DNA of 64,000 nt from Nitrospirota bacterium (GTDB taxonomy: Bacteria > Nitrospirota > Nitrospiria > Nitrospirales > Nitrospiraceae), in the NCBI GenBank assembly GCA_004296885.1, contig SCVN01000002.1:124001-188000 (forward strand), read 5' to 3'. This document shows, one piece after another, positions 15,815 to 49,939 of the stretch; positions within the stretch are counted from its first letter, which is position 1; each line of letters begins with the position of its first letter. The notes under the pieces are model-generated. The model saw only the letters and a program-made list of their open reading frames with translations. It was not told the origin of the DNA and ran no database searches. The translations under genes were made by a program, and so were the position numbers.

Positions 15815-16891
15815 ATGGTCTCCGACATCACCGAGTACTGCGTTTCACCGGCCAGCACCATCCGGCAAGTTATTGCCTGCATCGAACGAAACAGCGGCGG
15901 CACCGCGCTGGTCGTGGGTCCGGAGGGGAGGCTCCTGGACGTCATCACGGACGGCGACGTGCGCCGGGCCATTCTTGCGGGGTTGTCGCTGGACGAATCC
16001 ATCAGCGTCTTGCGAAGCCGACGGGCGCATTCCGCCTATCCCGAACCCGTGACCGCCTTGATCGGCACGGAGCCCGAGGAGTTGCTGCGTCTGATGCAGG
16101 AGCGGGCTGTGCGGCAGATCCCCCTCGTGGATGAAAGCCGCCGGGTCACGAAACTGGTCTTCCTGCGGGACCTGCTCCCCGATGAGACCTGGCCGCTTCA
16201 GGCCGTGGTGATGGCGGGGGGGTTCGGCAACCGCATGCGTCCGCTCACCGAGAAGATGCCCAAGCCCATGCTGCCGGTCAGCGACAAGCCGCTGCTGGAG
16301 CTGATCCTGCAGCAGCTCCGCGAGGCCGGGGTCCGGCGCGTGAACGTCACGACGCATTACAAGAGCGAGGTGATTGCCAATCACTTCGGCGATGGACGCA
16401 ACTTCGGCGTGGAAATCAATTACATCCAGGAGGATCAGCCGCTGGGCACGGCCGGGGCGTTGAACTTCGTGGACAAGTCCGAAGGACCGCTGTTGATCAT
16501 GAACGGCGATATCATCACCCAGGTGGATTTTCGGGCCATGGTGGACTTCCACAGGGACAACCGGGCGGATATGACGGTCGGAGTCCGGCTGTATGAGCTC
16601 AGCGTGCCCTACGGAGTCATGGAAACGGAGGGCATCGACATCACGGGAATTTCAGAAAAGCCGGTGTTGAAGCATTTCATCAACGCCGGAATCTACCTGC
16701 TCGATCAATCCATGCGTCGGTACATTCCGACGGGGCAGCCGTTTGACATGCCCGATCTGATCAAGGGGCTCATCGCGGAAGGGCACCGGGTGGTGAGTTT
16801 TCCGATCCATGAATATTGGCTCGATATCGGCCATCACGCGGATTACGAGAAGGCGCTGGCCGATGCCAAGGAAGGCAAGATCGCGTCGTGA
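15815..16891 (+). CDS. ptmE: CBS-domain nucleotidyltransferase (PtmE-like sugar-1-phosphate guanylyltransferase)
   Basis: Two-part protein of about 358 residues. Residues 1-120 form a CBS pair (TIRQ, then TDGDVRRAIL, then IPLVDESRRV). From about residue 130 a nucleotidyltransferase domain follows (VVMAGGFGNRMRPLTEKMPKPMLPV, GTAGALNF, MNGDI, EYWLDIGH). The same architecture is known in Campylobacter PtmE, which makes GDP-GlcN for the legionaminic pathway, and in related proteins. The CBS pair probably binds a nucleotide or product and regulates activity. Its closest relative in this window is the CBS pair fused to an aminotransferase at 48488. ATG 15782 is an alternative start. The end overlaps the next GTG (GTGA). 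Confidence 0.82.
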   Translation: MVSDITEYCVSPASTIRQVIACIERNSGGTALVVGPEGRLLDVITDGDVRRAILAGLSLDESISVLRSRRAHSAYPEPVTALIGTEPEELLRLMQERAVRQIPLVDESRRVTKLVFLRDLLPDETWPLQAVVMAGGFGNRMRPLTEKMPKPMLPVSDKPLLELILQQLREAGVRRVNVTTHYKSEVIANHFGDGRNFGVEINYIQEDQPLGTAGALNFVDKSEGPLLIMNGDIITQVDFRAMVDFHRDNRADMTVGVRLYELSVPYGVMETEGIDITGISEKPVLKHFINAGIYLLDQSMRRYIPTGQPFDMPDLIKGLIAEGHRVVSFPIHEYWLDIGHHADYEKALADAKEGKIAS

Positions 16892-17871
16892 ACTGGTCGG
16901 GCAAGAAAGTGCTCGTCACGGGAGCCGGCGGGTTCATCGGCAGCCATTTGGCGGAAGGGCTCGTCGAACGGGGAGCGCAGTGCCGCGCGTTTGTCCGCTA
17001 CAATTCTGCGGGGAGCCACGGATGGCTGGACGGTTCCCCCATCAAGAGCGAGATCAAGGTGTTCGCGGGGGACATCGGCGACCGGGATGGCGTCGTCCAG
17101 GCGATGCGCGGGGTGGACATCGTGTTTCACCTGGCGGCTTTGATCGGGATTCCCTATTCCTATGCGGCGCCGGCCGCCTACGTCCGCACCAACATTGAAG
17201 GCACCCTCAATGTCCTGCAGGCGGCCCGCGAGCTGGGCCTGGAGCGGGTCATCCACACGTCCACAAGCGAAGTCTACGGAACCGCCCGCTATGTGCCGAT
17301 CGACGAAGAGCATCCGCTGCAAGGGCAATCGCCGTATTCGGCCTCCAAGATCGGCGCGGATCAATTGGCGCTGTCTTTCGCGCGCTCGTTCGACCTGCCC
17401 GTCGTGGTCGTGCGGCCGTTCAACACTTACGGGCCCCGCCAATCGGCCCGCGCGGTGATCCCGACGATCATCGCCCAGTGCCTGGCCGGCGGTGCGGTCA
17501 AACTGGGCAGCCTGACCCCCACGCGCGACCTGAACTTCGTGGTGGACACCGTGGAGGGGTTCTGCCTGGCGGCCGGGCCGTCCGCGGCGATCGGCCGGGT
17601 GATCAATCTCGGCAGCGGCAAGGAGATATCGATCGGAGACTTGGCTCGCAAAATAGCCGATCTCATGCAGGTGGGGCTCGACGTTGAATTTGAAACGGAG
17701 CGCGCCCGCCCGCGCAACAGCGAGGTTGAGCGGCTCTGCGCCGCCAATCAGCGCGCGCGCGAGCTGTTAGGCTGGGCTCCCCGGCACACGCTCGAAGTCG
17801 GTCTGACACGGACGATCGAATGGATGCAGGTACACCGTGACTGCTACCGTCCCAATGTCTATGCAGTGTGA
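16888..17871 (+). CDS. legB: Nucleotide-sugar 4,6-dehydratase (LegB-like extended SDR)
   Basis: Extended SDR of about 327 residues. TGAGGFIGSHLAEGL spans residues 11-25, followed by FHLAALIGIPYSY, STSEVYGTA near 127, YSASKIGADQLA near 150 and RPFNTYGPRQSARA. This pattern (STSEVYGTA, then PYSASKIGAD, then PFNTYGPRQSARA) resembles the family of 4,6-dehydratases in legionaminic clusters. Those give the 4-keto-6-deoxy intermediate that an aminotransferase (LegC) then aminates. No LegC gene lies next to it here. GTG 16888 overlaps the previous stop; the frame is open upstream to 16816. Substrate (GDP- or UDP-HexNAc) is inferred from the PtmE-like neighbour. Confidence 0.78.
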   Translation: MNWSGKKVLVTGAGGFIGSHLAEGLVERGAQCRAFVRYNSAGSHGWLDGSPIKSEIKVFAGDIGDRDGVVQAMRGVDIVFHLAALIGIPYSYAAPAAYVRTNIEGTLNVLQAARELGLERVIHTSTSEVYGTARYVPIDEEHPLQGQSPYSASKIGADQLALSFARSFDLPVVVVRPFNTYGPRQSARAVIPTIIAQCLAGGAVKLGSLTPTRDLNFVVDTVEGFCLAAGPSAAIGRVINLGSGKEISIGDLARKIADLMQVGLDVEFETERARPRNSEVERLCAANQRARELLGWAPRHTLEVGLTRTIEWMQVHRDCYRPNVYAV

Positions 17872-17910
17872 CCGTTGGGGACAGAGTGCCCCAAAGCCGG
17901 GTAGGGGGCG

Positions 17911-18768
17911 ATGCCGGAAATCGTCGTGACCGGCGCAGCCGGGTTTATCGGTCGGGCGGTTTGCGCAGAGTTGCTCCGGCGGGGTGCGACCGTCCAGGCC
18001 GTCGGCCGCTCGAAGCCGGTGCGCCTGCCCGGCATCGCCTATCAACAAGTCGGCGGGTACGATCAGCTAAAGGCGCCTGCCGGTTCGATCTGTCTCCATC
18101 TGGCCGGCAGGAACAGTGCCAGCGGGGTCACTGGGGGCAGCGAGGCGGATCATGCGGCCGCGATGGACCTGACTCGGGCGCTCCTGTCGCGGGGGTTTTC
18201 GAGGGTGATCTTTGCCTCGAGCGCGCTGGTGTACGGGGACCAGTGCGCGTTCGCGAGGCAGGAGGACGAACCCGCGACTCCCGCCGGTGTCTATGCCCGG
18301 AGCAAAGCGGCGGTCGAGGCAGTCCTGCTGGCGCACGGCCATTGCGTGGCCAGGATCGCAAATGTGTACGGGGCTGGCATGGCGGAAACGAACGTGCTCT
18401 CGGACCTGTTGAGTCAGATTCCCGGGTCGGGAATGCTGCGCGTGCGCAATCTGACGCCGGTGCGGGACTTTATCCACGTCACGGATGTCGCTCGGGGCCT
18501 GGCCGATCTTGCCATGGAGGGGGCCACGGGCATCTTCAACCTCGGGACCGGAAAGAGGACGAGCATCCAGGAGCTGGCGTCCCTGCTGGCAGCGATCGCC
18601 GGCGAATCCGACCGCCGCCCTGTTTCCGAGGCGGCCCAGGGCCGCCTGTCGGTCTTGATTCTCGACCCCGACAAAATGCGCCGGCGCTTCGGCTGGCAGG
18701 CCGAAGTGCAACTGCACGAGGGGTTGCGGGAGTTGGTTGAACGCCGGCTGAATCCGGTTTCGCAGTGA
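17911..18768 (+). CDS. NAD-dependent epimerase/dehydratase (extended SDR), substrate unknown
   Basis: Extended SDR of 285 residues. VTGAAGFIGRAV is at the N-terminus, HLAGRNS follows, ASSALVYGD forms the Ser segment, and YARSKAAVE near 128-136 holds the Tyr/Lys pair. RVRNLTPVRDFIHVTDVARGL is the typical C-terminal substrate-domain region, though shorter than in most epimerases. It may reduce a 4-keto sugar or epimerise a nucleotide sugar. The 39 bases upstream hold no strong ribosome binding site. It lies between the LegB-like gene and the second carbamoyltransferase. I cannot assign a substrate. Confidence 0.75.
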   Translation: MPEIVVTGAAGFIGRAVCAELLRRGATVQAVGRSKPVRLPGIAYQQVGGYDQLKAPAGSICLHLAGRNSASGVTGGSEADHAAAMDLTRALLSRGFSRVIFASSALVYGDQCAFARQEDEPATPAGVYARSKAAVEAVLLAHGHCVARIANVYGAGMAETNVLSDLLSQIPGSGMLRVRNLTPVRDFIHVTDVARGLADLAMEGATGIFNLGTGKRTSIQELASLLAAIAGESDRRPVSEAAQGRLSVLILDPDKMRRRFGWQAEVQLHEGLRELVERRLNPVSQ

Positions 18769-18876
18769 CCCGCCCGATGCCCGCGGCCGCATGTACATGT
18801 GCCTCCCGCCGTCCGACCGTTCTCGGCAGCGGGCGGCCGCACGGTCCCAACGTCTAACCGCAGGAGCGATACACCC
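18769..18876 (+). other. 108-base intergenic stretch with short palindromes
   Basis: No gene is seen. It holds CATGTACATG (18790-18799), two copies of GCGGCCGC (18783-18790 and 18833-18840), and an inverted pair GACCGT (18815-18820) and ACGGTC (18841-18846). There is no T-tract, so it is not a canonical terminator. CAGGAG lies shortly before the next ATG. A leader or attenuator function is possible but unsupported. Confidence 0.3.
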
Positions 18877-20580: not shown

Positions 20581-20605
20581 ACAAGCTCCTGGGCAGGAAG
20601 ACCCT

Positions 20606-27754: not shown

Positions 27755-27768
27755 AACTTCTCATCCGC

Positions 27769-28515
27769 ATGGAAAGTCATCGCTCCTTGGTGGATTCTGC
27801 AGCTCCTATGAATGATTTTCTATATCGCGGAACCGAGTTGGATGCGATGGAAGCGGCGACCAACTACCATCGCGCCATTGCGGAGTGGTTCCGTCCTTAC
27901 GTGGGGAGGCGGGTCGTTGAAATCGGGGCCGGCGTCGGGTCCTTTTCCGCCTCGTTGTTGGCGCGTGTTCCGGATTGCGAGCTGACCCTCGTGGAGCCGG
28001 CCGCCAACCTGTTTCCCTTACTTCACGAACGGTTCGGGCATGAGTCCCGCGTGAAATTGGTGAACGGATTTTTGGAAGTGCTGAGCGGCGGGCTGGTCGC
28101 CGATTCCGTCGTGATGGTGAACGTGCTGGAACACATCGAGAAGGACGAAGCGACCTTGAGCACGATCCACCGCATCCTGGCACGCAACGGGACCATCCTG
28201 CTGTTTGTGCCGGCGTTCCAGTGGCTGTACGGAGCGTTCGACGTGGCGCTGGGCCATTATCGACGCTATAGCAAGGCGGGCCTGACCATGCGGCTGAAAC
28301 AGGCGGGGTTCGAGCCCCTGTGTATCCGGTATTTCAATTGGCCCGGCGTCTTCGCCTGGTTTCTGGCGAGCCGCGTGCTCAGGCAAACGACGGCACGGCC
28401 TGCGGATGTCCGCCGGTACGACAAATGGGTCACTCCATTGACCACGCGCCTGGAGCGACGCTGGGAGCCTCCCTTCGGACAGAGTCTTTTGGCGATTGCC
28501 CGTAAGGTCGAGTGA
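27769..28515 (+). CDS. SAM-dependent methyltransferase (class I)
   Basis: About 248 residues. The SAM-binding motif VVEIGAGVGSFSASLL lies near residues 50-65, an acidic motif II segment TLVEPA follows, and VNVLEHIEKDE near 125 is typical of Methyltransf_11/23-type enzymes. PAFQWLYGAFDVALGHYRRY is often found in glycan-cluster methyltransferases next to DPM1-like GT2 proteins. It probably O-methylates a sugar. The frame is open well upstream (to 27481, overlapping the GT2 gene), so the start is uncertain. ATG 27769 keeps a short gap to the previous stop; ATG 27808 is the alternative. The GTGA overlap at its end couples it to the next gene. Confidence 0.75.
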   Translation: MESHRSLVDSAAPMNDFLYRGTELDAMEAATNYHRAIAEWFRPYVGRRVVEIGAGVGSFSASLLARVPDCELTLVEPAANLFPLLHERFGHESRVKLVNGFLEVLSGGLVADSVVMVNVLEHIEKDEATLSTIHRILARNGTILLFVPAFQWLYGAFDVALGHYRRYSKAGLTMRLKQAGFEPLCIRYFNWPGVFAWFLASRVLRQTTARPADVRRYDKWVTPLTTRLERRWEPPFGQSLLAIARKVE

Positions 28516-29963
28516 CCCCCCGGGGCGGAATTACGTCAATGGCCATGACTGCGGAACAACAACATCGGGCAACGGGAGATGACTGGAAACCGCTGACGGC
28601 GATTGTCGTCCTGACCCTGGCGTTTCAATTCACCAATTTCGTGTTTGACTGGAACACGCTGAGCCTGCGCGACCGGTTTACGGCCAACCTCGAGCTCACC
28701 GTCGGCGATAACACGCATTATTTCGCGATCGCGGCCAATCTGCTCTCCGGAAAGGGGTATATGGACTCCGACGGCGAGATGCTGACCGTCCGGGCGAAGA
28801 CCATCACCTATCGGAGAATGCCCGGCTCGCCGTTCCTTTTCGCCATCCCCCTGGCGCTGTTTTGCCGGGATACCGGGTACCAGATCACGGAAGCCAATGC
28901 CCTTCAGGTCTGGCTGTTCATGTACGGCGTTCATCTGGCGGCTCTGTGTCTCGGGGGCGTCTATCTGTACAAGCTGGCGGACCTGTTCCTGGCAAGTCGC
29001 GGGATGGCGTTTGGGGCGGCTCTCCTCTACGTGCTCTGGCCGTCGAACCTGGTTTTTCTCTCGCCCTCCATGGCCAGGTTCACCGCTGAAACCCTGGTGG
29101 CCCCGCTTTTCATCTGGTCCTATTATCTGCTCCACGACCCGCATGGCACGGTCCGGAGCCGGCTGTTGGCCGGCGCCGTTCTGGGCTTCTGTCTTCTGAG
29201 CAGGGTCTATCTGGTGCTGGTGCTGGCCGGGATCGTCGTCCTGGCGCTCGTGCTTCGGAACGTACAGTTCAGAAGGAACGTCCTTGTCGCCGTCTTTGTG
29301 GCGGTGGTGATCCTGCTTCCCTGGCCGGTCCGAAATTATCTCGTGTTCGGCGATTTTTCCTTGAGCTCGCAAGGCGGGATCCAGCTATGGCTGGGGAACA
29401 ATGCGGAGGCCCGGGGGTCGATCGATGGCCGCATGTACGACGAAGGCTACAGCCGTCCCCAGGACTTCCCGCTGCTCAGGCAGTTGGAAGAGAAGTATCC
29501 GGGCCTCGTCTACATGCAGGGCTATGACGAGACGCAAGCCAAGGCCATTCTCCGGAAGGAGGCGGTGGACTGGATAGTCGCCAACTGGCGGGCGGTTCCG
29601 GATCTCTGGCTGCGGAAACTGGCCATCACCTTGTATCCGGCGAATTTCGGCACCGGGAAGAAAATCAATCTCCTCACCGCCATGGTCTTCCTGCTGAGCC
29701 TGCCAGGCGTGGGGCTGTATCTCTACCGTTGTGCGAAAGGCCTGGCTCCGCCGGAGTTTCTCTCACTGACCTTGCCCATCGTCTGCATGTGCCTGGTAAA
29801 CGTCCTGTTTTTCGCCGAATACCGGACCCGGCTGCTCATGGAGCCCTTCATGATCCTCTTTGCCGTCTATGGGGTGCACCATCTGATCCGGAAGGCTCCC
29901 CTCCACTTGGTTCGATGGAGACAGGAAGGTCTGCGGGAGTGGAAGCGTTGCGAGGGAAAGTAA
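28512..29963 (+). CDS. GT-C fold membrane glycosyltransferase (GT39/PMT_2-like)
   Basis: A 483-residue polytopic membrane protein with roughly ten hydrophobic segments. After the first helix (LTAIVVLTLAFQ) comes a periplasmic loop with an acidic residue (GDNTHYFAIAANLLSGKGY). It is followed by RRMPGSPFLFA, which matches the D...A..L..G....PG.P pattern of GT39-like enzymes. PWPVRNYLVFG in the middle is also typical. It probably transfers a sugar from polyprenyl phosphate on the periplasmic side. GTG 28512 overlaps the previous stop (GTGA), and ATG 28539 is possible. It is convergent with the minus-strand gene three bases beyond its stop. No terminator is seen between them. Confidence 0.72.
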   Translation: MTPRGGITSMAMTAEQQHRATGDDWKPLTAIVVLTLAFQFTNFVFDWNTLSLRDRFTANLELTVGDNTHYFAIAANLLSGKGYMDSDGEMLTVRAKTITYRRMPGSPFLFAIPLALFCRDTGYQITEANALQVWLFMYGVHLAALCLGGVYLYKLADLFLASRGMAFGAALLYVLWPSNLVFLSPSMARFTAETLVAPLFIWSYYLLHDPHGTVRSRLLAGAVLGFCLLSRVYLVLVLAGIVVLALVLRNVQFRRNVLVAVFVAVVILLPWPVRNYLVFGDFSLSSQGGIQLWLGNNAEARGSIDGRMYDEGYSRPQDFPLLRQLEEKYPGLVYMQGYDETQAKAILRKEAVDWIVANWRAVPDLWLRKLAITLYPANFGTGKKINLLTAMVFLLSLPGVGLYLYRCAKGLAPPEFLSLTLPIVCMCLVNVLFFAEYRTRLLMEPFMILFAVYGVHHLIRKAPLHLVRWRQEGLREWKRCEGK

Positions 29964-33361: not shown

Positions 33362-33516
33362 CGGCTGGGCCCAGGGGGAGCCATTTATTTGTTGCCTGTA
33401 GGTCGGAATTTGGATAGCATGAGCATCCTTGACTCCAGGGTGGCGTGGCGCCGGTTTCGGATCCTGCGCGGGCGCAATTCATCGGATGAACCGCGGCATT
33501 GGATGAGAGAGCCGTC

Positions 33517-35016
33517 ATGGTGAGCCGGATCTGCCTCATCATCCCCCCTTCGATCTTCCTGCTTGACGAGCGGGTGTTCATGACGCTCGGAGTTCTGAAG
33601 GTCGCGGCTGTGCTTGAGCAGGCCGGGGTCGAGGTCGAACTGCTTGATTTATCAGGGGTGGCCAATTACGAAGATGTTGTCCGCGATCATGTGGCGTCCA
33701 GCGGGGCCAGGTGCTACGGGCTAACCGCCACCACGCCCCAAATGCCCGCCGCGACCAAGGTCTATCAGGTCATACGCTCAGTTCGTCCGGAAGTCCGAAT
33801 TATCCTCGGCGGCCCGCACGTCACCCTGATCCAGGCGGCGTACAAATACGAGCAGAAACGGGGGGTGCCGGGCCGGGGAACGACGGCGATCCGGCAGCTC
33901 CAGGAGATGTTCGACGTGCTGGTTACGGGCGACGGAGAGCTGGCGGTCTTTGAGGCGTTGAAGGATCATCCCCCGAAACTGGTGGACGGCGATGATCCGA
34001 AAACCGACCTATTCCTGAACAATCAGGCTCTGACCGAATTGCCGTTTCCGGCCAGACATTTGCTGGACGTCGACAGCTATCGTTATACGATCGACGGGGT
34101 GCGCGCGCTGTCCATGATCGCGCAGCTTGGCTGCCCCTTCGGGTGCGGGTTCTGCGGGGGTCGCATGAGTCCGTTTCTCCGCCGCATCCGGATGCGGACA
34201 TCGGAGAACATCGTGCGGGAAATGGTGCACTTGCACGAGACGTACGGTGTCACGGGGTTCATGCTGTATGATGACGAGTTGAATGTGAACCCGAAAATCG
34301 TCGAGTTGATGGATTTGATCGCCAAGGCGCAACGCGATCTCGGGGTTGAATTCAGGCTCCGCGGGTTTATTAAGTCCGAGCTCTTTACGGACCAACAGGC
34401 CGAAGCCATGTATCGGGCGGGCTTTCGATGGGTCCTGATCGGGTTCGAGTCGGGGCACGAGCGCATCCTCACCAACATCCAGAAAAAAGCCAGCCAGGCG
34501 GATAACACCCGCTGCATGGAGATCGCCAAGCGGCACGGCCTGAAGGTCAAGGCCCTGATGTCGCTGGGGCATCCCGGAGAGTCGGAGGAGACGATCCGTG
34601 CCACGCGAGACTGGTTGCTGGCCGTCAAGCCGGCGGATTTCGACGCCACGGTGATCACGACCTATCCGGGGACGCCGTATTTCGACGAGGCGGTGCAGAC
34701 GCAGCCCGGAGTCTGGACGTACACGTATCAGAAGACCGGCGATCGTCTTCACAGCATCGAAGTGGACTATCGCCACGTGGCCGAATACTACAAAGGTGTG
34801 CCGGGGGAATACACGTCCTATACCTACACCGACCACCTCAGCGCGGAAGAATTGGTCCGACTGCGCGATTGGCTCGAAGCCGACGTGCGCGGCAAGCTGA
34901 ATATCCCGTACAATACCGGTACCGCCGCCGTCCGCTACGAGCATTCAATGGGCCAGGGCGGCATTCCGCCCTCGATTCTTAGAATGACGACCCCCCTCAG
35001 CATGAAAAGCACATGA
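33517..35016 (+). CDS. Cobalamin-binding radical SAM enzyme (class B type), first of tandem pair
   Basis: About 499 residues. The N-terminal ~170 residues form a B12-binding-like domain (ICLIIPPSIFLLDERVF, then ARCYGLTATTPQM and RIILGGPHVTLIQA). The radical SAM motif CPFGCGFC has cysteines at about 206, 210 and 213. GFESGHERILTNIQKKAS and SLGHPGESEETI belong to the SAM barrel. This architecture is used for methylation of unactivated carbons and other radical chemistry. The substrate is unknown. The 155-base gap before it has no gene. ATG 33517 follows GAGAG; TTG 33499 is an alternative. A second enzyme of the same type starts 28 bases after its stop. Confidence 0.85.
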   Translation: MVSRICLIIPPSIFLLDERVFMTLGVLKVAAVLEQAGVEVELLDLSGVANYEDVVRDHVASSGARCYGLTATTPQMPAATKVYQVIRSVRPEVRIILGGPHVTLIQAAYKYEQKRGVPGRGTTAIRQLQEMFDVLVTGDGELAVFEALKDHPPKLVDGDDPKTDLFLNNQALTELPFPARHLLDVDSYRYTIDGVRALSMIAQLGCPFGCGFCGGRMSPFLRRIRMRTSENIVREMVHLHETYGVTGFMLYDDELNVNPKIVELMDLIAKAQRDLGVEFRLRGFIKSELFTDQQAEAMYRAGFRWVLIGFESGHERILTNIQKKASQADNTRCMEIAKRHGLKVKALMSLGHPGESEETIRATRDWLLAVKPADFDATVITTYPGTPYFDEAVQTQPGVWTYTYQKTGDRLHSIEVDYRHVAEYYKGVPGEYTSYTYTDHLSAEELVRLRDWLEADVRGKLNIPYNTGTAAVRYEHSMGQGGIPPSILRMTTPLSMKST

Positions 35017-35044
35017 GCGGCCCACGGTGGGGCGAACGGAGAAT

Positions 35045-36661
35045 ATGAATCTGATCACCCTTGAAGAGAGTCAGCCGCAGGCTCCCACGATGACGCCGTC
35101 CGGCGGGCGCAAGTCCATCGTCCTTCTGAGGCCGCCTATGGTCGTGCCGAGGTGGGCGCATGTGTCCTCCATCTGCCCCCCTCTCGGGCTGGCTTACGTT
35201 GCCGCCTCCATCCGGAAGGCGGGGTTTCAAGTCCGTTGCGTGGATGCTCTGGGTGAAGCCCCCTTCCAATGCCTGGTACTGGAGAACCCCAATTTTCTTT
35301 CGTACGGGCTGCCGATTCCTCAAATCGTCGAACGAGTCGGCCAGGTGGACATTCTGGGCGTTTCGCTGATGTTCTCGCATGACTGGCCGGTGCACAAAGC
35401 CATCATCCAGGCCGTGCACGAAAAAAATCCCGGCGTGACGGTCATCTGCGGCGGGGAGCATATCAACGCCGTTCCGGAGTTCTGCCTGGGGGACTGTCCT
35501 GAGATCGACATGTGCGTGATGGGCGAAGGTGAAGAGACGATTATTGACTTATTGAATGCACTGCACGATGGACGGAATCTCAACGCCGTCCCCGGCATCA
35601 TGTTCCGCGCCGACGGAGGATTTATCAGAACGCCGACGAGACCCCGTATCCGGAAGCTCGACGAAATCCCCTGGCCGGCCTGGGATCTCTTCCCGCTGGA
35701 AACATACATGGCCAACGGGCTGGGTTACGGGGTTAATCCGGGACGGACTGTGCCGCTCCTAGTGTCGCGGGGATGTCCGTTCGAGTGCACCTTTTGCTCG
35801 AGCCCCCAGATGTGGACGACGCGCTGGCAGGCCCGTCCGGTCGACGATGTGCTGCGCGAGATGGAGTATTACGTTCAGAACTTTCAGGCTCAAAACTTCG
35901 ACTTCTACGATCTGACGACCATCATCAAGAAGGACTGGATCAAGGAATTTTGCGAGAAGGTCATTGCGAAGAACTGGAACATCACCTGGCAAATGCCGGC
36001 GGGAACGCGTGCAGAGGCGCTGGACGCCGAGGTGCTGCCCTTGATGTACCGGTCGGGGCAGCGGAACATCAGCTATGCGCCGGAGAGCGGTTCCCCCACG
36101 TCCCTCAAGCTGATCAAGAAAAAGGTCAGCCTGGATCGAATGAAGGTTTCCATTCGGAACGCCATTAAGGAAGGCATGAACGTGAAGCTCAACATGATCA
36201 TGGGGTTTCCTCATGAAACGAAGAAGGAGATCTTCGAGAGCTTCCGGTTTCTGCGGGAGGTGGCCATCCTCGGCGTGCACGATGTCTACATCGCCTGCTT
36301 CTCCCCCTACCCGGGATCCGAGCTTTTCGAAGAGTTGCAGCAATCCGGCCGCATCAAGGCTATGGACAGCGATTATTTTCTGATGCTCACAAGCTACAGC
36401 GATATGCGGTATTCCTATTCCTACTCGCCGCACATCTCGAATCGTCAGCTGACCGTCTACCGGCTTGGCGGCATGTTGATGTTTTACGTTATCAGTTATC
36501 TTATCCGGCCATGGCGTTTGTTTAGGGTCTTGCGCAACGTTATGGCCGGCAAAGAGGAATCCCGGCTGGATATGGCCTTAGGTCAGTTGCTGGAACGGCT
36601 GCGGAACAAGAAGGTCGCCTTGCAGGACGTGGAGCGGGCGAGCCTGGGAGCCAACCGGTGA
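35045..36661 (+). CDS. Cobalamin-binding radical SAM enzyme (class B type), second of tandem pair
   Basis: About 538 residues. The N-terminal B12-binding-type domain runs from about 25 to 170 (IVLLRPPMVVPRWAHVSSI, PPLGLAYVAASIRKAGF, VICGGEHINAVPE). The SAM motif CPFECTFC has cysteines at about 244, 248 and 251. SYAPESGSPTSLKLIKKKV and MIMGFPHETKKEI lie in the barrel. The C-terminus carries a hydrophobic stretch LGGMLMFYVISYLI, possibly membrane-associated. Such enzymes often act on lipids or complex glycans. CGGAGAA precedes ATG 35045. It differs enough from the upstream copy to suggest successive and not redundant steps. Substrate unknown. Confidence 0.85.
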   Translation: MNLITLEESQPQAPTMTPSGGRKSIVLLRPPMVVPRWAHVSSICPPLGLAYVAASIRKAGFQVRCVDALGEAPFQCLVLENPNFLSYGLPIPQIVERVGQVDILGVSLMFSHDWPVHKAIIQAVHEKNPGVTVICGGEHINAVPEFCLGDCPEIDMCVMGEGEETIIDLLNALHDGRNLNAVPGIMFRADGGFIRTPTRPRIRKLDEIPWPAWDLFPLETYMANGLGYGVNPGRTVPLLVSRGCPFECTFCSSPQMWTTRWQARPVDDVLREMEYYVQNFQAQNFDFYDLTTIIKKDWIKEFCEKVIAKNWNITWQMPAGTRAEALDAEVLPLMYRSGQRNISYAPESGSPTSLKLIKKKVSLDRMKVSIRNAIKEGMNVKLNMIMGFPHETKKEIFESFRFLREVAILGVHDVYIACFSPYPGSELFEELQQSGRIKAMDSDYFLMLTSYSDMRYSYSYSPHISNRQLTVYRLGGMLMFYVISYLIRPWRLFRVLRNVMAGKEESRLDMALGQLLERLRNKKVALQDVERASLGANR

Positions 36662-42416: not shown

Positions 42417-42484
42417 GCGCCGGGCGGGCATGCAAAGAGGGGCCGGTCTTCCTGCTGCGTGCAGGATGCGGGCGTGGCTAGGCG

Positions 42485-43459
42485 GTGCTCTCAAGGGCAG
42501 GGCTGAAATGGGTCTACTTCACAGGGCTTGCCGCCATCGGCCGGGGCGCCGGCCTGCTGCGGAGGATCCGGCGGGACAATCTGGTGGTGGTGCTCAACCT
42601 GCACCAGGTGTCGCCGCGGTCCAACCCGTTCTGGAGCCCCTTGCAGCCGCGCCTCTTCGAGGACCTGCTGCGGTTCATGAAGCGCCACTTCGACGTGATC
42701 ACGTTCGGCGAGTTGGCTGCGGCGAGAGGCAGCCGCCCGGTTGCGATCCTCTCGTTCGACGACGGCTATTACGACTTTGTCGAGTACGCGATGCCGCTCC
42801 TGCACAAGCACGGGATGCGGGCCAACCAGAACATCGTGCCGTCCTGCGTGGAAAGCGGACGCCCGCCCTGGAACGTCCAGCTCTCGGACTTTCTCAATGG
42901 CGCGCCTAGGACGCTCATCAACGAGCTGCGGCTGCCGGGCTTTGCCGAGGGACTGGCCGGGGACGACGTTGACAGCAAGACACGGTACGGGGTCGCGTTG
43001 AGCCGGTTCCTGAAGACGCGGTCGAGGCAGGAACGGCAGCCGCTCTGGTCCCGTGTGGAACAGGTCATGGAGAAAGCCGACTGGACCATGACCCGCATGA
43101 TGAGCGCCGCCGACGTCCGCGCGGCCGGCGCCAGCCAGGAAATCGGCGTCCACTCCTACGCGCATGATTCGATGGAGTTCGAGAGCGACGCGTTCTTCGA
43201 GGAGGATCTGGACCGGTGTGTCGCGTATTTCGAGGACATCCTCCGCATGCCCCTATCCATCTATGCCTTTCCGAACGGGAGCTACCGTCCGATCCACCTC
43301 GAGATCTTGCGTCGCCGGGGGATCAGCCATATCTTGCTCGTGGACGAGAAATTTGCCAGACGGCCCTGCGCCGTCTGTCCCCGGTTCACCATGTATGGGG
43401 ATTCGCCGGCGGAAACCCGGTTTCGGGCGCTCGGGTACTACGCGCAGGGCGTGGGTTAG
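42485..43459 (+). CDS. Polysaccharide deacetylase family protein (NodB homology, CE4)
   Basis: A 324-residue protein of the CE4 fold. Motif 1 is LSFDDGYYDFVEYA near residue 90 with the catalytic and metal-binding Asp pair. The metal-binding His motif is GVHSYAHDSMEF near 221, and YAFPNGSYRP near 262 is motif 4-like. It would remove N- or O-acetyl groups from a sugar. No clear signal peptide is seen, although residues 8-25 are mildly hydrophobic, so it may act on a cytoplasmic or membrane-bound intermediate. Deacetylation beside an ACP and a GNAT suggests exchange of an acetyl for another acyl group. GTG start. Confidence 0.8.
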   Translation: MLSRAGLKWVYFTGLAAIGRGAGLLRRIRRDNLVVVLNLHQVSPRSNPFWSPLQPRLFEDLLRFMKRHFDVITFGELAAARGSRPVAILSFDDGYYDFVEYAMPLLHKHGMRANQNIVPSCVESGRPPWNVQLSDFLNGAPRTLINELRLPGFAEGLAGDDVDSKTRYGVALSRFLKTRSRQERQPLWSRVEQVMEKADWTMTRMMSAADVRAAGASQEIGVHSYAHDSMEFESDAFFEEDLDRCVAYFEDILRMPLSIYAFPNGSYRPIHLEILRRRGISHILLVDEKFARRPCAVCPRFTMYGDSPAETRFRALGYYAQGVG

Positions 43460-43482
43460 ACGCGACACACAAGAGTTGAACG

Positions 43483-43794
43483 ATGGACATGGCGACGAAA
43501 GACAAGGTGCTCCAGGTCATTTACAGCGGCATCGATGCCGTCAACCAGGTGTCAGCCAAGGAGGCCCGGTTGAACAAGGAGCCGGAGACGGCCCTGATGG
43601 GAGAGGCGGGGAAATTGGACTCACTCGGACTGGTGAATCTGATCGTGGCGATCGAGCAGAAGCTTGAAGAGGAGTTTGACGTGACGGTCAACCTGGCGGA
43701 CGGCCAGGCCATGTCGCTGAAGGACAATCCCTTCGCCACGGTGTCGACGCTCGCCGACTACATCGCGGGGATTTTGGAGCAACGGAAGCCATGA
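43483..43794 (+). CDS. Acyl carrier protein
   Basis: A 103-residue small acidic helical protein. The phosphopantetheine attachment Ser is in GKLDSLGLVNLIVAIE (Ser near residue 47). Following helices LEEEFDVTVNLAD and NPFATVSTLADYIAGILEQ fit the four-helix ACP fold. It is longer at the N-terminus than the FabF-type ACP, as common for dedicated ACPs in secondary or glycan pathways. The adjacent FkbH-like gene, with which it overlaps by 4 bases (ATGA), indicates a partnership in loading a hydroxy-acyl unit (for example glyceryl) onto the ACP. ATG 43489 is also possible. Confidence 0.88.
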   Translation: MDMATKDKVLQVIYSGIDAVNQVSAKEARLNKEPETALMGEAGKLDSLGLVNLIVAIEQKLEEEFDVTVNLADGQAMSLKDNPFATVSTLADYIAGILEQRKP

Positions 43795-45479
43795 GCGTGC
43801 CGGTCTTCAAGGGCGCCATCATTTCCGATTTCAACGCCGGAAACTTCGAAGGGTGCCTGAAAAACAGCGAGGATCTGCCCGGCGTGGATCCCGTGCTGGC
43901 GCCCTTCGGCCAGGTGGTCCCGGCGCTGCTGCAGGACGACTTCGAGTGCTGGCGGAACGCCCCGGATTTCGCCGTGGTGTGGGCGCGGCCGCAGAGCGTC
44001 ATCCCGTCCTTCGCCCGGCTGCTCCGCTATGAGACGGTGCCGGCGGATCTCCTGCTGTCCGAGGTGGATGCCTACTGGGCCCTGCTGGAGCGGGCCGGCG
44101 CGCGGGTGAAATTTCTCTTCGTGCCGACCTGGACGGCCCCCGCCCACCACCGGGAGTTCGGCTTGCTGGATTTGAAGGCCGGCGTCGGTCCGGCGCACGC
44201 GCTGATGCAGATGAACCTGCGTCTCGCCGAGCACTGCGGGAAGTCGCCCAACATCCATCTCCTCAACAGCCAGCGGTGGGTCGAGGCGGCCGGGCGGCAC
44301 GCCTTCAATCCCAAACTCTGGTACATGGGGAAGATCGCCTTCGGCAACGACGTGTTCATCGAGGCGGCGCGGGAGGTCAAGGCGGCCCTGCGGGGTCTGA
44401 CCGGCCAATCGAAGAAGCTCGTCCTGGTGGATCTCGATGACACGCTCTGGGGCGGCATCGTGGGGGACTTGGGATGGGAGAACATCGCGCTGGGAGGCCA
44501 CGACGCCGTCGGAGAGGCGTTCGCGGACTTTCAGCGGACCCTCAAGGCGCTGACCCGGCGCGGCGTGCTGCTGGGCATCGTGAGCAAGAACGACGAGGCG
44601 GTGGCCCTGGAAGCCCTCAGACGCCATCCGGAAATGGTGCTCCGGCCGGAAGACTTCGTCGGCTGGCGGATCAACTGGCAGGACAAGGCCGAGAACATCC
44701 TGGATCTGGTGAGGAGTCTGAATCTCGGCCTGCAGTCGGTCGTGTTCATCGACGACAACCCGGTCGAGCGAGACCGGGTCCGGGAGGCCCTGCCCGAGGT
44801 CTTCGTGCCCGAATGGCCGGCCGACACCACGCTCTATGAAAGCACCCTGCTGAGCCTCCGCTGCTTCAACGCCGCGTCCATCACGGCGGAAGACGCGCAG
44901 CGGACCCGCCTCTACGCCGCGGAAGGACAACGGGAGGATTTGAAGCGGCAATTGGGTTCGGTGGAGGCCTGGCTCAAGACCCTGGACGTCCGGGTGACCG
45001 TCGAGAGGCTGCAACCGGCCAACCTTCAACGGACGACGCAGTTGTTGAATAAGACCAATCAGATGAACCTGACGACGAGACGGATGTCCGAAGCGGAGCT
45101 GTCGGAATGGGCCGCCGGGGCGAACCGTCGTCTGTGGACGATCCGGGTGGCCGACCGGTTCGGAGATTCCGGCCTGACCGGCATCGTCAGCGTGGAGTCC
45201 CGTGCCGGCCTCGCCACGATCGTGGACTTCGTGCTGAGCTGCCGGGTGATGGGCAGGCGGGTGGAGGAAGCCATGCTCCATCTCGCCGGCGAATATGCCC
45301 GCTCGCAGGGGGCCCGGACCCTCCATGCACGCTATGTGGCGACGGAAAAGAACCGTCCCTGCCTCGAATTCTGGCAGAAGTCAGGATTTGCCGCAGCCGA
45401 AGGGGCGCTGTTTTCCTGGGACCTGAGCAACCCCTATCCCAGGCCGGACACCGTCACTATCGAGGGGAAGGATGCCTAG
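43791..45479 (+). CDS. FkbH-like HAD-IIIC phosphatase with C-terminal GNAT domain
   Basis: A 562-residue FkbH-family protein. Residues 1-200 form the N-terminal region, and the HAD catalytic motif LVDLDDTLWGGIVGDLGW is near 211-228. GIVSKNDEAVALEAL is near 262 and FIDDNPVERDRVRE near 320. The C-terminal ~150 residues resemble a GNAT domain (VADRFGDSGLTGIVSV, then CRVMGRRVEEAML). Characterised FkbH enzymes convert 1,3-bisphosphoglycerate to glyceryl-ACP; in glycan clusters FkbH-type proteins supply unusual acyl groups. The gene overlaps the ACP by 4 and the next gene by 8 bases, forming a tight three-gene unit. Confidence 0.88.
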   Translation: MSVPVFKGAIISDFNAGNFEGCLKNSEDLPGVDPVLAPFGQVVPALLQDDFECWRNAPDFAVVWARPQSVIPSFARLLRYETVPADLLLSEVDAYWALLERAGARVKFLFVPTWTAPAHHREFGLLDLKAGVGPAHALMQMNLRLAEHCGKSPNIHLLNSQRWVEAAGRHAFNPKLWYMGKIAFGNDVFIEAAREVKAALRGLTGQSKKLVLVDLDDTLWGGIVGDLGWENIALGGHDAVGEAFADFQRTLKALTRRGVLLGIVSKNDEAVALEALRRHPEMVLRPEDFVGWRINWQDKAENILDLVRSLNLGLQSVVFIDDNPVERDRVREALPEVFVPEWPADTTLYESTLLSLRCFNAASITAEDAQRTRLYAAEGQREDLKRQLGSVEAWLKTLDVRVTVERLQPANLQRTTQLLNKTNQMNLTTRRMSEAELSEWAAGANRRLWTIRVADRFGDSGLTGIVSVESRAGLATIVDFVLSCRVMGRRVEEAMLHLAGEYARSQGARTLHARYVATEKNRPCLEFWQKSGFAAAEGALFSWDLSNPYPRPDTVTIEGKDA

Positions 45480-47172: not shown

Positions 47173-47238
47173 CCGCCCTGGCTGAGGGATCCCGCAAGGC
47201 GACGAATTACAACCGGATCGTTGAGAAGCAGGAGGGTT

Positions 47239-48408
47239 ATGCCAGGATTTGAAATCATCGGGGATGAGGAGCGACAGGCGGTCAACGAGGTCTTCGAGCG
47301 GAGCGCGGTCCTGCTCCGGTTCGGCTTCGACGAGGCGCGCCGCCAGGTCTTCAAGGTCAAGGAGTTCGAAACGGCGTTCGCGACGAGGCTGGGGGTCCGC
47401 CGTGCCCAGGCCGTCACGTCCGGCACGGCCGCCGTCAAGGTGGGGTTGAAGGCGCTGGGCGTCCGGCCAGGGGACGAGGTCGTCACCCAGTGTTTCACGT
47501 TCGTGGCCACGGCGGAGGCGATCCTCGAGTGCGGGGCGGTGCCGGTCTTTACGGAAGTCAATCGCACCTTGAATATGGACCCCGAGGACCTGGCCCGGAA
47601 GATCACGCCGAAGACGAAGGCGATCATCCCGGTGCACATGCTGGGCGCCGCCGCGCCGATGGCGGAGCTCCTCGAGATCGCCGACCGGCATGGCATTCCG
47701 GTGCTCGAGGATGCCGCCCAGGCCTGCGGCGGGCAATACCGGGGCCGTCCCCTGGGAAGCTGGGGGCGCGCGGGGGCGTTCAGCTTCGACTTCGGCAAGG
47801 CCCTCACGACCGGCGAAGGCGGCATGGTCGTGACCGACCGGGAGCCGGTCTATTCGAGCGCCCGCGCGTACTCGGACCACGGGCACGAGAGCAATCCGGC
47901 CGTGCCCCGCGGCGAGGACACGCGCTCCGCGCCGGGATTCAACTACCGCATGATGGAGCTGCAGGGGGCAATCGGCCTGGTCCAGCTCGCGAAGCTCGAC
48001 GGCGCGGTGAAGCGGCAACGGGAGAACAAGGCCAGGATCAAGCAGGCGCTCCAGGGGATCACCGCCGTCCGGTTCCGGGAGTTCGCGGACGAGGAAGGGG
48101 AGACCGGGGACACGCTCGTCTTGTTCCTCGACGATCCCAAAGCGGCGTCCCGGGCGGCTCGGGATCTGCTCGCCGAGGGCGTGCGCTTCCGCATCCTGCC
48201 CGAGGCGCTGACTTGGCATTTTGCCGGGACCTGGGAGCACATGCTGCCGGGGCTCGAGCGCTACCGGGGCAAGGCCATCGCGCGCGAATGGCCCCTGTCG
48301 GAGGCCTTGCTCCGGTGCGCCATCGCCATCCCGATCTTCATCAAGATGGATGACGCGAAGCTCCAATGGACGATCGATCGGTTGGTGAAAGTGCTGCGGC
48401 AATGCTGA
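47239..48408 (+). CDS. DegT/DnrJ/EryC1 aminotransferase (KdnA-like)
   Basis: A 389-residue PLP-dependent sugar aminotransferase. TSGTAAVKVGLKALG near 57 binds the cofactor phosphate, VLEDAAQACGG near 155 provides the ring-binding Asp, and SFDFGKALTTGEGG holds the PLP Lys near residue 187. The N-terminus PGFEIIGDEERQAV and the SFD version of the Lys motif resemble the subgroup that includes the 8-amino-3,8-dideoxy-octulosonate transaminase KdnA. Other keto-sugar substrates are equally possible. The ATG is preceded by AGGAGGG. It could also fill the LegC role missing next to legB, though its position 30 kb away argues against this. Confidence 0.82.
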   Translation: MPGFEIIGDEERQAVNEVFERSAVLLRFGFDEARRQVFKVKEFETAFATRLGVRRAQAVTSGTAAVKVGLKALGVRPGDEVVTQCFTFVATAEAILECGAVPVFTEVNRTLNMDPEDLARKITPKTKAIIPVHMLGAAAPMAELLEIADRHGIPVLEDAAQACGGQYRGRPLGSWGRAGAFSFDFGKALTTGEGGMVVTDREPVYSSARAYSDHGHESNPAVPRGEDTRSAPGFNYRMMELQGAIGLVQLAKLDGAVKRQRENKARIKQALQGITAVRFREFADEEGETGDTLVLFLDDPKAASRAARDLLAEGVRFRILPEALTWHFAGTWEHMLPGLERYRGKAIAREWPLSEALLRCAIAIPIFIKMDDAKLQWTIDRLVKVLRQC

Positions 48409-48418
48409 GCCGCGGCCT

Positions 48419-48457
48419 CGTCCCTGCCTGGCCGGCGGCAGGCCGGCGGAAGGGACG
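48419..48457. repeat. Inverted repeat in the gap before the CBS-DegT gene
   Basis: CGTCCCT (48419-48425) pairs with AGGGACG (48451-48457), and CCTGCC (48423-48428) pairs with GGCAGG (48437-48442). The two stems overlap by three bases, so they are partly exclusive. There is no T-tract. It lies in the 79-base gap between two aminotransferase genes and could slow readthrough or be an mRNA-processing site; this is not shown. Confidence 0.4.
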
Positions 48458-48474
48458 ACAGACGATCCGGCAGC

Positions 48475-48480
48475 GGGAGG
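48475..48480 (+). promoter_or_regulatory. Ribosome binding site for a TTG start
   Basis: GGGAGG at 48475-48480 is seven bases before the TTG at 48488, which supports this rare start codon for the CBS-DegT fusion. Confidence 0.55.
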
Positions 48481-48487
48481 GGCGACG

Positions 48488-49939
48488 TTGAGCACACGGT
48501 TGGAATCGGTCCTGGTGTCTCCCGACGCGACGATCAGGCAGGCGCTGTCGGTCATCGATACGGGCGGCCTGGGCGTGGCGCTGGTCGTGAACGGCCGGCG
48601 GCAGTTGTTGGGTCTGGTCACGGACGGAGATTTGCGACGGGCCATGTTGGACGGGCACGGCCTGGAGGCGGAGGTCCGCCTGGTGATGAACCCGGAACCG
48701 ATGACCGCATCGAAGGCCACGCCCCGCGAACAGGTGTTCGGCCTGATGAACGTGAAGATCCGGCATATTCCCGTCCTGGACGAGGACCGGCGGGTCTGCG
48801 ACCTGGTGTGTTTCGTCGAACTGTCCAGGAAGATCCCCTGGGCGATCCCCTACATCGGCGAGGAGGAGCAGAACGAGGTCGCGGACACGGTCCGTTCCGC
48901 CTGGGTGACCATGGGTCCGAAAGTCGCCAGGCTGGAGCGGGAGATGGCCGCGTACGTTGGAGTGAAGTATGCGGTGGCGGTCTCCAGCGGCACGGCGGCG
49001 CTGGATGTGGCCCTCAAGGTGTTGCACATTGGGCCGGGCGACGAGGTGATCGTGCCGGCGCTCACGTATATCGCGACGGCGAACGCCGTGCTCTACCAGC
49101 ACGCCACGCCGGTGCTGGCCGACGTGGACCCGACGACGTTCAACCTGGACCCGGAGGATGTCAGGCGGCGCATTACGCCGCGGACCAAGTGCATCATGCC
49201 GATCGATTATGGCGGCCAGTCCGCCGACTATGACGCGCTGGGCCGGATCGCGCGCGAGCACGGACTCGCGCTTGTCGAGGACGGCGCGCAGTCGCTCGGG
49301 GGGGAGTACAAGGGGCGGCGGTTATGCTCCTTCGGCGTCATGAGCACGGTGAGCTTCCATGCCGCCAAGGTGATCACCTCGGTGGAAGGCGGCATGGTCC
49401 TCACAGACGACGAGAAGCTGGCCGACCTCGCCCGGGTTCTCCGCAACCAGGGCGAGGATCCGGTGAACAAGTACCATCATGCCGTGCTCGGACACAACTA
49501 TCGCATGACCGACCTTCATGCGGCCGTCGGCCTGGCGCAGTTCCGGCGGCTCAACGAGGTGCTCCGGCGGCGCGCCGAGATCGCCGACTTCTACACCAAA
49601 CGGCTGACCGGGCTGGAGGGCAAGCTGACGCTGCCCGCGGTGGCGCCCGAGCGCCGGCACGCGTGGTTTTTCTACCCCGTGCTACTTCACAACCGGGACG
49701 AGGTCGTCGGCTACCTGAAGGAGAAGGGCATCGACACGCGGATCGCCTGGCCGCTGCCGATCCACAAGCAGCCGCTGTACCGGTCGTTCTTCGAAGGCGC
49801 GCGGTTTCCGGTGGCCGAGCGCCTTGCCGACTCGGTGTTGAATCTGCCGCTCTACTACGAAATGTCCGAAGAGGAGGCGCAGTACGTCGTGATGCACCTC
49901 AAGGACGCGGTGACCCGCGCGGGAAAGACAGCCCGATGA
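48488..49939 (+). CDS. CBS-pair fused to DegT/DnrJ/EryC1 aminotransferase
   Basis: A 483-residue fusion. Residues 1-118 are a CBS pair (SPDATIRQALSVID, LVTDGDLRRAMLDG, IPVLDEDRRVCDLV). Residues 120-483 are a complete DegT aminotransferase with SSGTAALDVALKVL near 172, VEDGAQSLGGEYKG near 263 and the PLP Lys in FHAAKVITSVEGG (near 294). The CBS pair is homologous to that of the PtmE-like nucleotidyltransferase at 15815 (shared TIRQ, TDGDxRRA and RRV positions). A CBS pair on an aminotransferase is unusual and suggests allosteric control of a sugar amination. TTG start with GGGAGG upstream. The end overlaps the next ATG (ATGA). Confidence 0.85.
   Translation: MSTRLESVLVSPDATIRQALSVIDTGGLGVALVVNGRRQLLGLVTDGDLRRAMLDGHGLEAEVRLVMNPEPMTASKATPREQVFGLMNVKIRHIPVLDEDRRVCDLVCFVELSRKIPWAIPYIGEEEQNEVADTVRSAWVTMGPKVARLEREMAAYVGVKYAVAVSSGTAALDVALKVLHIGPGDEVIVPALTYIATANAVLYQHATPVLADVDPTTFNLDPEDVRRRITPRTKCIMPIDYGGQSADYDALGRIAREHGLALVEDGAQSLGGEYKGRRLCSFGVMSTVSFHAAKVITSVEGGMVLTDDEKLADLARVLRNQGEDPVNKYHHAVLGHNYRMTDLHAAVGLAQFRRLNEVLRRRAEIADFYTKRLTGLEGKLTLPAVAPERRHAWFFYPVLLHNRDEVVGYLKEKGIDTRIAWPLPIHKQPLYRSFFEGARFPVAERLADSVLNLPLYYEMSEEEAQYVVMHLKDAVTRAGKTAR

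Follow-up and report, generated by a model that had tools for sequence, protein, structure and literature searches.

Why does the same small domain stand at the front of two different sugar enzymes in one locus? The question is raised by a 64,000-nucleotide stretch from a Nitrospirota bacterium (GenBank assembly GCA_004296885.1, contig SCVN01000002.1, positions 124,001 to 188,000; the window in the following), in which a PtmE-like sugar-1-phosphate nucleotidyltransferase (CBS-NTase, 15815..16891) and a DegT aminotransferase (CBS-DegT, 48488..49939) each begin with a pair of CBS domains. Both genes lie on the + strand, and their reading frames are open throughout. The first possible start of the CBS-NTase frame is an ATG at 15782; a second ATG at 15815 agrees better with where the domain begins. 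CBS-DegT starts with TTG. The CBS pairs score 43.9 bits (NTase) and 53.6 bits (DegT) with the Pfam CBS model (PF00571, cut-off 24 bits), and the catalytic parts score 156.8 bits with NTP_transferase and 416 bits with DegT. The pairs comprise residues 1-118 of the NTase (15815..16168) and residues 1-114 of the DegT protein (48488..48829), and an alignment of residues 1-120 of both proteins revealed 46/120 identical positions (38%, E 9e-23). The motif T45-D-G-D-x-R-R51 has identical residue numbering in both, as TDGDVRR in the NTase (15947..15967) and TDGDLRR in the DegT protein (48620..48640). The homology of the two pairs, which had been proposed in the first-pass annotation, is thus confirmed.

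Group profiles were built to compare the two pairs with other CBS domains, always without the protein that was scored, so that each window pair belongs to the profile of the other's group. The CBS pair of CBS-DegT reached 121 bits with the profile of 41 CBS-NTase pairs and 115.7 bits with that of 29 CBS-DegT pairs, compared to 45 bits with eight pairs of the arabinose-5-phosphate (A5P) isomerases KdsD/GutQ and 33 bits with seven generic CBS pairs from the same genome. The respective values for the CBS pair of the NTase were 93 bits (40 CBS-NTase pairs), 95.5 bits (30 CBS-DegT pairs), 31 bits (KdsD/GutQ) and 17 bits (generic). In a quick tree of CBS pairs, 86 rows of the nonulosonate type were split from the KdsD, generic and NuoF-like rows (support 96); a careful tree gives the corresponding node no support (10/0). 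The two pairs therefore do not fall into unrelated clades, the outcome that would have spoken against a common sensor, although trees of such a short domain place both of them poorly. Because of the pairwise and the group-profile scores, they are best regarded as members of one CBS subfamily, apart from the generic CBS domains tested, and not as two random CBS pairs. Both proteins combine the three features by which the family is delimited here, namely, the TDGDxRR motif, a score above generic CBS domains and a neuB gene in the locus.

The attached enzymes are of different kinds. The CBS-NTase has a PtmE-type architecture, a CBS pair plus NTP_transferase in a locus with LegB, NeuB, NeuC and a cytidine monophosphate (CMP) transferase; its nearest NCBIfam model is mannose-1-phosphate guanylyltransferase, with 172 bits far below the cut-off of 440. 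CBS-DegT is assigned to the DegT/DnrJ/EryC1/StrS aminotransferases (PF01041) by profile, by fold and by the lysine that binds pyridoxal phosphate (PLP), K294, which is invariant and lies within the catalytic domain (residues 115-476, 48830..49915). It scores below the cut-offs of two more specific models, LegC (TIGR04181, about 275 bits, cut-off 420) and PseC (TIGR03588, 309 bits, cut-off 423.5). With the KdsD/KpsF model (TIGR00393) the CBS part alone matches (residues 9-106, 46.6 bits, cut-off 203.7), and a SIS isomerase domain is absent.

The two enzymes belong to two nonulosonate (NulO) cassettes about 30 kb apart, cassette 1 at 8256-18768 and cassette 2 at 47221-58263. It had been suggested that a common ligand could control two steps of the same glycan programme, and this is not supported in that form: two cassettes with one sensor each are a better picture than one programme, because each cassette has a NeuB and a CMP-transferase of its own.

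CBS pairs on PtmE-like nucleotidyltransferases are a known architecture, and it was the fusion to DegT that had been called unusual. A whole-protein search in 61 genomes, that of the window and 60 relatives, found DegT proteins in 60 of them, and among the matches listed only the window's own spans the CBS pair. When 395 genomes of the phylum were searched with the CBS query, 47 places in 42 genomes were found; the 30 places that were fetched comprise 24 CBS-NTases (one cut by a contig end), two CBS-DegT proteins (the window's and one in genome G208), one CBS-GHMP kinase and three proteins that are NuoF-like by sequence reading. At least 22 of the best 80 loci of a genome-contig scan span both CBS and DegT; the titles of their records name Chloroflexi, several Proteobacteria, Lachnospiraceae, Planctomycetota and Prochlorococcus, among others, and a large share are metagenome-assembled genomes. 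Four further fusions were present in a 398-genome sample of another phylum. The fusion also occurs on at least two plasmid records among the plasmid matches listed (15 in one search and 17 in another), of which H1, H2, H3, H11 and three GutQ/KpsF ones were opened. A candidate on an Ensifer plasmid (H11/L102) was rejected, as its DegT and CBS-NTase are separate neighbouring genes. Among the matches listed for 45 relatives on viral contigs there is none that extends over both CBS and DegT; 44 fall within DegT and one within CBS. Altogether, at least 30 distinct fusions are known including the window's, of which the most similar two are 91% identical. CBS-DegT is thus uncommon, as had been stated, but it is recurrent, with 29 more fusions found. 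Because it recurs, the window protein is less odd than it first seemed; the pattern of the whole family is of greater interest than the single fusion.

This pattern becomes apparent from the surroundings of the genes. Of 25 CBS-DegT loci other than the window's, 20 encode NeuB close to the fusion, 17 encode a CMP-transferase there, and not one encodes a CBS-NTase. The other 58 loci of the contig scan comprise 26 with a CBS-NTase, of which 21 have NeuB and 20 a CMP-transferase, and 32 with plain DegT only, of which just 4 have NeuB; not one of these 58 and 25 loci contains both a CBS-NTase and a CBS-DegT. Four extra CBS-DegT loci all encode NeuB and NeuC (4/4) and no CBS-NTase, which raises the total with NeuB nearby to 24/29. 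Three of the five CBS-DegT loci without NeuB are on contigs shorter than 9 kb, and another, L124, is near a contig edge. Two classes of CBS-DegT loci can be distinguished: NeuC is present in 13 of the 16 class A loci and a xylose-isomerase-like TIM (triosephosphate isomerase) barrel in none, while the TIM barrel is present in 7 of the 9 class B loci and NeuC in none. In the class A loci L123 and L116, a gene for a hexapeptide acetyltransferase stands between NeuC and CBS-DegT; that of L123 is a NeuD-family protein over the cut-off, and its L116 counterpart was assigned by sequence. Further along come a sugar-phosphate transferase gene and one for a PglF-like dehydratase, and this neighbourhood may be read as a route of the UDP-bacillosamine type (UDP, uridine diphosphate).

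A survey centred on NeuB covered 217 genomes of the phylum and listed 81 places. The 74 stretches analysed, of at most 20 kb and with a few overlaps, represent all listed places except the window's two and one with internal stop codons; labels were given by BLAST thresholds against the window genes, and the CBS profile was made from mixed CBS pairs. A CBS pair was found in 19 of the 74 stretches, 15 times on an NTase (once cut by a contig end) and once each on DegT, on a GHMP kinase, on a NeuB with a fused TIM barrel (NeuB-TIM), and alone. Stretches with LegB carry a CBS-NTase in 12 of 15 cases, while only 7 of the 59 stretches without LegB carry any such CBS pair. The sensor is thus typical of legionaminic-type cassettes and not of plain sialic-type ones.

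Related CBS pairs are therefore fused to at least four kinds of enzymes, NTase, DegT, GHMP kinase and NeuB-TIM, and one stands alone. L319 encodes a triple fusion of a CBS pair, NeuB and a xylose-isomerase-like TIM barrel in one frame of 748 residues (8630-10873, - strand). The stand-alone pair of L312 (11648-12037, + strand) has 130 residues and a divergent motif, and its gene lies between those for NeuC and the CMP-transferase and overlaps both. In L104 the gene for a CBS-GHMP kinase adjoins that for a NeuB-TIM (1386-3287), and further NeuB proteins with a C-terminal TIM barrel are encoded in L285 (8653-10548), L392 (11257-13212), L394 (9402-11339) and L397 (7768-9705). The fused barrel is of the same type as the one that class B loci encode in a gene of its own. 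Three genomes, G458, G758 and G582, repeat the layout of the window with another second partner: they have two neighbouring NulO cassettes with one CBS sensor each on different enzymes, the first cassette being LegB-DegT-NeuC-NeuB-CBS-NTase and the second CBS-GHMP kinase plus NeuB-TIM plus CMP-transferase. The three NuoF-like proteins (L091, L093, L099), which have a CBS pair after residue 490, were set aside as unrelated to the family; they form a branch of their own (98) and the motif is absent.

What might such a domain bind? The TDGDxRR motif is present in 45/51 CBS-NTases, 26/26 CBS-DegT proteins and 16/18 KdsD/GutQ proteins, compared to 0/8 generic CBS pairs, and it is kept in L319, L392, L394 and L397, in NeuB-TIM or GHMP kinase contexts. 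T45, D46, G47, D48, R50 and R51 are invariant, like the PLP lysine, in an alignment of 20 CBS-DegT proteins (20/20; 26 were known at that stage). In an alignment of 60 CBS sequences, 6 of the 7 columns conserved at 90% or more lie in T-x-x-D, which is the ligand-type motif of CBS pairs. A structural model of the CBS pair of CBS-DegT (predicted local distance difference test, pLDDT, 93.5) matched the 50 solved CBS entries listed with Z scores of 14.3-16.7, with MJ0100 (3kpb, with 5'-methylthioadenosine/S-adenosylmethionine, MTA/SAM) at the top. Fifth in rank is 4o9k, a CBS pair from a putative A5P isomerase (Z 15.7, root-mean-square deviation (rmsd) 2.1 over 115 residues); it aligns through TDGDLRR and has the highest TMq (0.81) in a separate listing of 50 matches. 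The title of 4o9k names a complex, whose ligand we take to be CMP-Kdo. The model of the full CBS-DegT protein (pLDDT 92.7) has guanosine diphosphate (GDP)-perosamine synthase as its top PDB match (3bn1, Z 54.4, rmsd 1.3 over 362 residues), and K294 aligns with K186 of that enzyme, which is named as the K186A mutant in the title of 3dr4.

The explanation that we prefer, and to which we give about an even chance, is that these CBS pairs are one sensor family of CMP-nonulosonate pathways, which would bind the end product of the cassette and throttle the attached enzyme. One enzyme per cassette would carry the sensor, in cassette 1 the NTase that opens the GDP-sugar route and in cassette 2 the sugar aminotransferase. 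The TDGDxRR site would be where the CBS pair recognises the activated end product, either the whole CMP-nonulosonate or just the CMP within it; the attached enzyme would then become less active, a form of feedback control. The sensor could have moved between enzymes because the ligand stays constant while the route to the ligand changes. The partners of the sensor share no single substrate nucleotide, and NeuB uses none, so that a CMP-nonulosonate is the most economical common ligand; a CMP-sugar is also the most reasonable guess. The frequent vicinity of NeuB at loci with either fusion, compared to its rarity at plain DegT loci, supports this explanation, as does the motif common to KdsD/GutQ, because KdsD serves the CMP-Kdo pathway. 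The match of 4o9k through this motif and the three genomes with two sensor-bearing cassettes point in the same direction. A further-reaching version, which we put somewhat below an even chance, is that a dedicated CMP-nonulosonate-sensing CBS family roams among cassette enzymes, usually one per cassette, and keeps the feedback while enzyme and chemistry are exchanged. Its partners would be the NTase, at least two aminotransferase subfamilies, GHMP kinase and NeuB-TIM, in addition to free-standing pairs; the window's DegT subfamily has not otherwise been seen with the sensor here.

Several observations weigh against end-product sensing. The exact motif is absent from 6/51 CBS-NTases, from the CBS-GHMP kinase pair of L080/L104 and from the stand-alone pair of L312; in the NeuB survey the proteins without it are those of L271, L276, L278, L282, L104 and L312. 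The CBS-DegT locus L112 has full flanks and no NeuB. Among the stretches of the NeuB survey with NeuC and without LegB, 18/22 carry no CBS pair, and the sensor is therefore not general to the making of CMP-nonulosonates. In a careful CBS tree rooted on the generic pairs, the 76 nonulosonate pairs stand together at a node without support (10/0), and when the generic rows are left out, KdsD nests among the nonulosonate pairs. Three solved structures match the model at least as well as 4o9k, 3kpb (16.7), inosine monophosphate (IMP) dehydrogenase with ATP/ppGpp (Z 16.4) and 2rif with AMP (Z 16.2). Feedback at an aminotransferase in the middle of a pathway is also less usual than feedback at the first step.

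The last structural point leads to the most serious competitor, that the pairs are ordinary sensors of adenylates (AMP, ADP or ATP) or of another housekeeping nucleotide, which would tie sugar making to the energy state, and that the association with NulO genes reflects no more than shared ancestry. Indeed, a good number of the solved CBS pairs whose ligands are AMP, ATP or of the SAM type fit the model no worse than 4o9k. However, the window pairs score far higher with their own family than with generic CBS pairs (121 and 115.7 versus 33 bits; 93 and 95.5 versus 17 bits), the motif is common to KdsD instead, and members of the set are found on dissimilar enzymes that serve a single type of pathway, so that we regard adenylate sensing as unlikely, if the strongest of the alternatives. 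It is less probable still that each CBS pair binds the nucleotide part of its own enzyme's substrate or product, a GDP or UDP sugar, in a local control that differs from enzyme to enzyme. The NTase makes a nucleoside diphosphate (NDP) sugar and the window's DegT is structurally nearest to GDP-perosamine synthase, which speaks for such control, but related pairs occur on GHMP kinase and on NeuB, which handles no NDP-sugar, and the motif is kept in L319, L392, L394 and L397, though not exactly in L104.

Two other possibilities are quite improbable in our judgement. The pair might mainly be a dimerisation or docking module that holds the enzymes of a cassette together, with a structural role of the motif. 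CBS pairs generally dimerise, and a stand-alone pair of 130 residues in a NeuB operon is consistent with such a task; the concentration of conservation in the ligand-type T-x-x-D motif, with 6 of the 7 most conserved columns, speaks against it. The other possibility is a single pathway, in which CBS-DegT is the missing LegC for the LegB of cassette 1 and one ligand acts on two steps towards one product. Ten CBS-NTase loci were compared, eight have a strong LegB match, and in seven of these eight a DegT gene adjoins LegB (L253, L256, L257, L105, L106, L108 and L109); the window, unlike these, has an SDR (short-chain dehydrogenase/reductase) gene there instead. Moreover, the five matches to the LegC model in the genome all fall short of the cut-off, and the highest score among them is that of CBS-DegT (274 bits). 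On the other hand, CBS-DegT lies in a different cassette, which encodes a NeuB and a CMP-transferase itself, it is nearer to PseC than to LegC, it lies about 31 kb from LegB, and L107 likewise has LegB and a CBS-NTase without a DegT match. Since the LegB of cassette 1 has no adjoining DegT, cassette 2 may nevertheless help: either the product of cassette 1 is something other than legionaminic acid, or enzymes of cassette 2 might supply its amino group.

A quick tree of DegT domains (131 rows, support by the Shimodaira-Hasegawa-like approximate likelihood ratio test, SH-aLRT) united 15 class A fusions and two plain rows in one clade (100) and placed nine class B fusions together (80). The window's DegT domain paired with a CBS-less DegT of Haladaptatus (99), within a set of 29 rows that are otherwise without CBS (96). 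This nearest relative is archaeal, is encoded on a plasmid (L235, 11998-14056), is about 56% identical and is followed by an SDR gene. A tree in which the window's DegT was constrained to class B was rejected (123.7 log units, p 0.001), and the window's DegT domain is therefore of a different subfamily from that of the class B fusions. For the class A and class B fusions that were tested (L100, L103, L110, L123), the LegC model gave the highest scores (369-389 bits, cut-off 420). Given the supported branches of the DegT tree, the fusion must have been gained or lost at least three times.

The CBS trees are less clear. In a careful tree with outgroups, the KdsD pairs are united on one branch and the generic pairs on another (each 100/98). 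In the careful tree without generic rows, the class A pairs are a firm clade (100/96). The window pairs are poorly placed in all careful trees, which have 115 columns. A local duplication as the origin of the two window pairs is not favoured, as that of the NTase joins the CBS-NTase of L090 in one careful tree (99/89). In a later careful tree, from whose rows L090 was absent, the window pairs were among each other's nearer rows without support, and a constraint that holds them together was not rejected (p 0.40). Constraining the window CBS with class B was not rejected (p 0.91; the held tree was 40 log units above the quick free tree), and the same is true for class A (p 0.23). The surroundings of cassette 2 are of class B type, with a TIM barrel 53% and a CMP-transferase 45% identical to their L103 counterparts. 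A domain swap, in which a class B CBS pair was kept and the DegT domain was exchanged, is attractive, since class B is rejected for the DegT domain and not for the CBS pair, but it is left as a possibility because 115 columns are too few and the careful trees do not settle the position of the window CBS pairs.

All genes of the two cassettes are on the + strand. Cassette 1 begins with a GFO/IDH/MocA oxidoreductase (8256..9239, Pfam), a CMP-sugar cytidylyltransferase (9236..9997, Pfam CTP_transf_3) and a short-chain dehydrogenase (9985..10791, Pfam). NeuB (10776..11837, TIGR03569, 461.7 bits) and NeuC/LegG (11837..12997, TIGR03568, 447 bits), both over the NCBIfam cut-off, are followed by HisF-like, HisH-like and WbuX N-acetyl sugar amidotransferase genes (13012..15785), with NCBIfam scores of 271 bits for WbuZ (cut-off 300), 181 for HisH and 358 for WbuX, the latter two over the cut-off. 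Downstream of the CBS-NTase are the LegB 4,6-dehydratase (16816..17871, TIGR04180, 467 bits, slightly below the cut-off of 475) and an SDR-family gene (17911..18768, Pfam Epimerase, 94 bits), which occupies the position after LegB where 7/8 compared loci carry DegT.

Cassette 2 starts with a second DegT gene without CBS (47221..48408, Pfam DegT, 285 bits), which is without near relatives in the 131-row DegT tree, where its branch is long (1.76). CBS-DegT is followed, by Pfam, by an adjoining SDR (49945..50886), a xylose-isomerase-like TIM barrel (50883..51815, AP_endonuc_2), which is the mark of class B loci, and an iron-type alcohol dehydrogenase plus a methyltransferase (51745..53836). Then come the second NeuB (53842..54894, TIGR03569, 424 bits, over the cut-off), an SDR whose domain begins at about residue 176 of its frame (54366..55733, Pfam), an ATP-grasp protein and a PHP-domain protein (55743..57550, Pfam), and a CMP-sugar cytidylyltransferase (57547..58263, Pfam CTP_transf_3; NCBIfam PseF 146 bits, below the cut-off of 205.7). 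Between the cassettes two adjoining B12-binding radical SAM proteins are encoded (33499-36661). Three long frames of the window are without a Pfam match (28512-29963, 43791-45479 and 60478-62481). Past the window, the same genome has further NeuB-family matches at C2:190819 and C2:194047, possibly a third ulosonate cassette; no CBS match was found in C2:188001-208000 (stretch L341).

To our knowledge, the control of the legionaminic- and pseudaminic-type sugars found on flagella, in O-antigens and on S-layers is still little understood. The recurrence of the sensor on different enzymes suggests that many variants of the pathway answer to a common signal. Should a single family of sensors determine the flux through many NulO pathways, its ligand would supply one rule that can be tested, the control-point enzyme of a cassette would become predictable, and a portable regulatory module would be available. 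Such a family would also clearly illustrate how an allosteric domain can be tied to a pathway and not to a particular enzyme. In the open-access literature searched no paper was found on CBS-DegT or on a role of CBS domains in nonulosonate pathways (a domain database may list the architecture), nor any that joins a CBS domain with PtmE or with CMP-Kdo, or that deals with 4O9K; papers that pair a CBS domain with DegT look unrelated by title. The accessible parts of the literature found on PtmE and the legionaminic route (including PMC7371886 and PMC4481668) give no role for the CBS pair, and the CBS mentions in the accessible part of PMC3758288 concern TlyC-type proteins, which differ from the nonulosonate CBS family.

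Several known systems resemble parts of the window. IMP dehydrogenase and other CBS-regulated enzymes also have a CBS pair as an allosteric module, but the sequence similarity is only distant, and the CBS pair of IMP dehydrogenase is inserted into the barrel and senses purine nucleotides. GDP-perosamine synthase and other DegT sugar 4-aminotransferases share the catalytic domain and the equivalent of K294 (41% identity to 3bn1); in contrast to CBS-DegT, none of the solved DegT chains among the 50 matches listed, with lengths of 357-428, is long enough to include a CBS pair. LegC/PglE are alike in that the tested class A and class B fusions score best with the LegC model and that L123 and L116 have NeuD-type, sugar-phosphate-transferase and PglF-like neighbours, but the fusions carry a CBS pair, and the window's DegT is outside the LegC/PglE subfamily. 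PtmE of Campylobacter, which carries a CBS pair itself, is a close counterpart of the CBS-NTase, whose N-terminal CBS pair likewise stands on an NTase in a LegB-NeuC-NeuB-CMP-transferase locus; the window has no DegT beside LegB. The GDP-linked CMP-legionaminic acid route to which PtmE belongs is described in the accessible part of PMC4481668. The A5P isomerases KdsD/KpsF/GutQ, in which a CBS pair is a known architecture (as far as the accessible part of PMC10448790 describes it), likewise join a CBS pair with TDGDxRR to a sugar enzyme, but their catalytic domain is a SIS domain, their CBS pair is C-terminal, and they form their own branch of the CBS tree.

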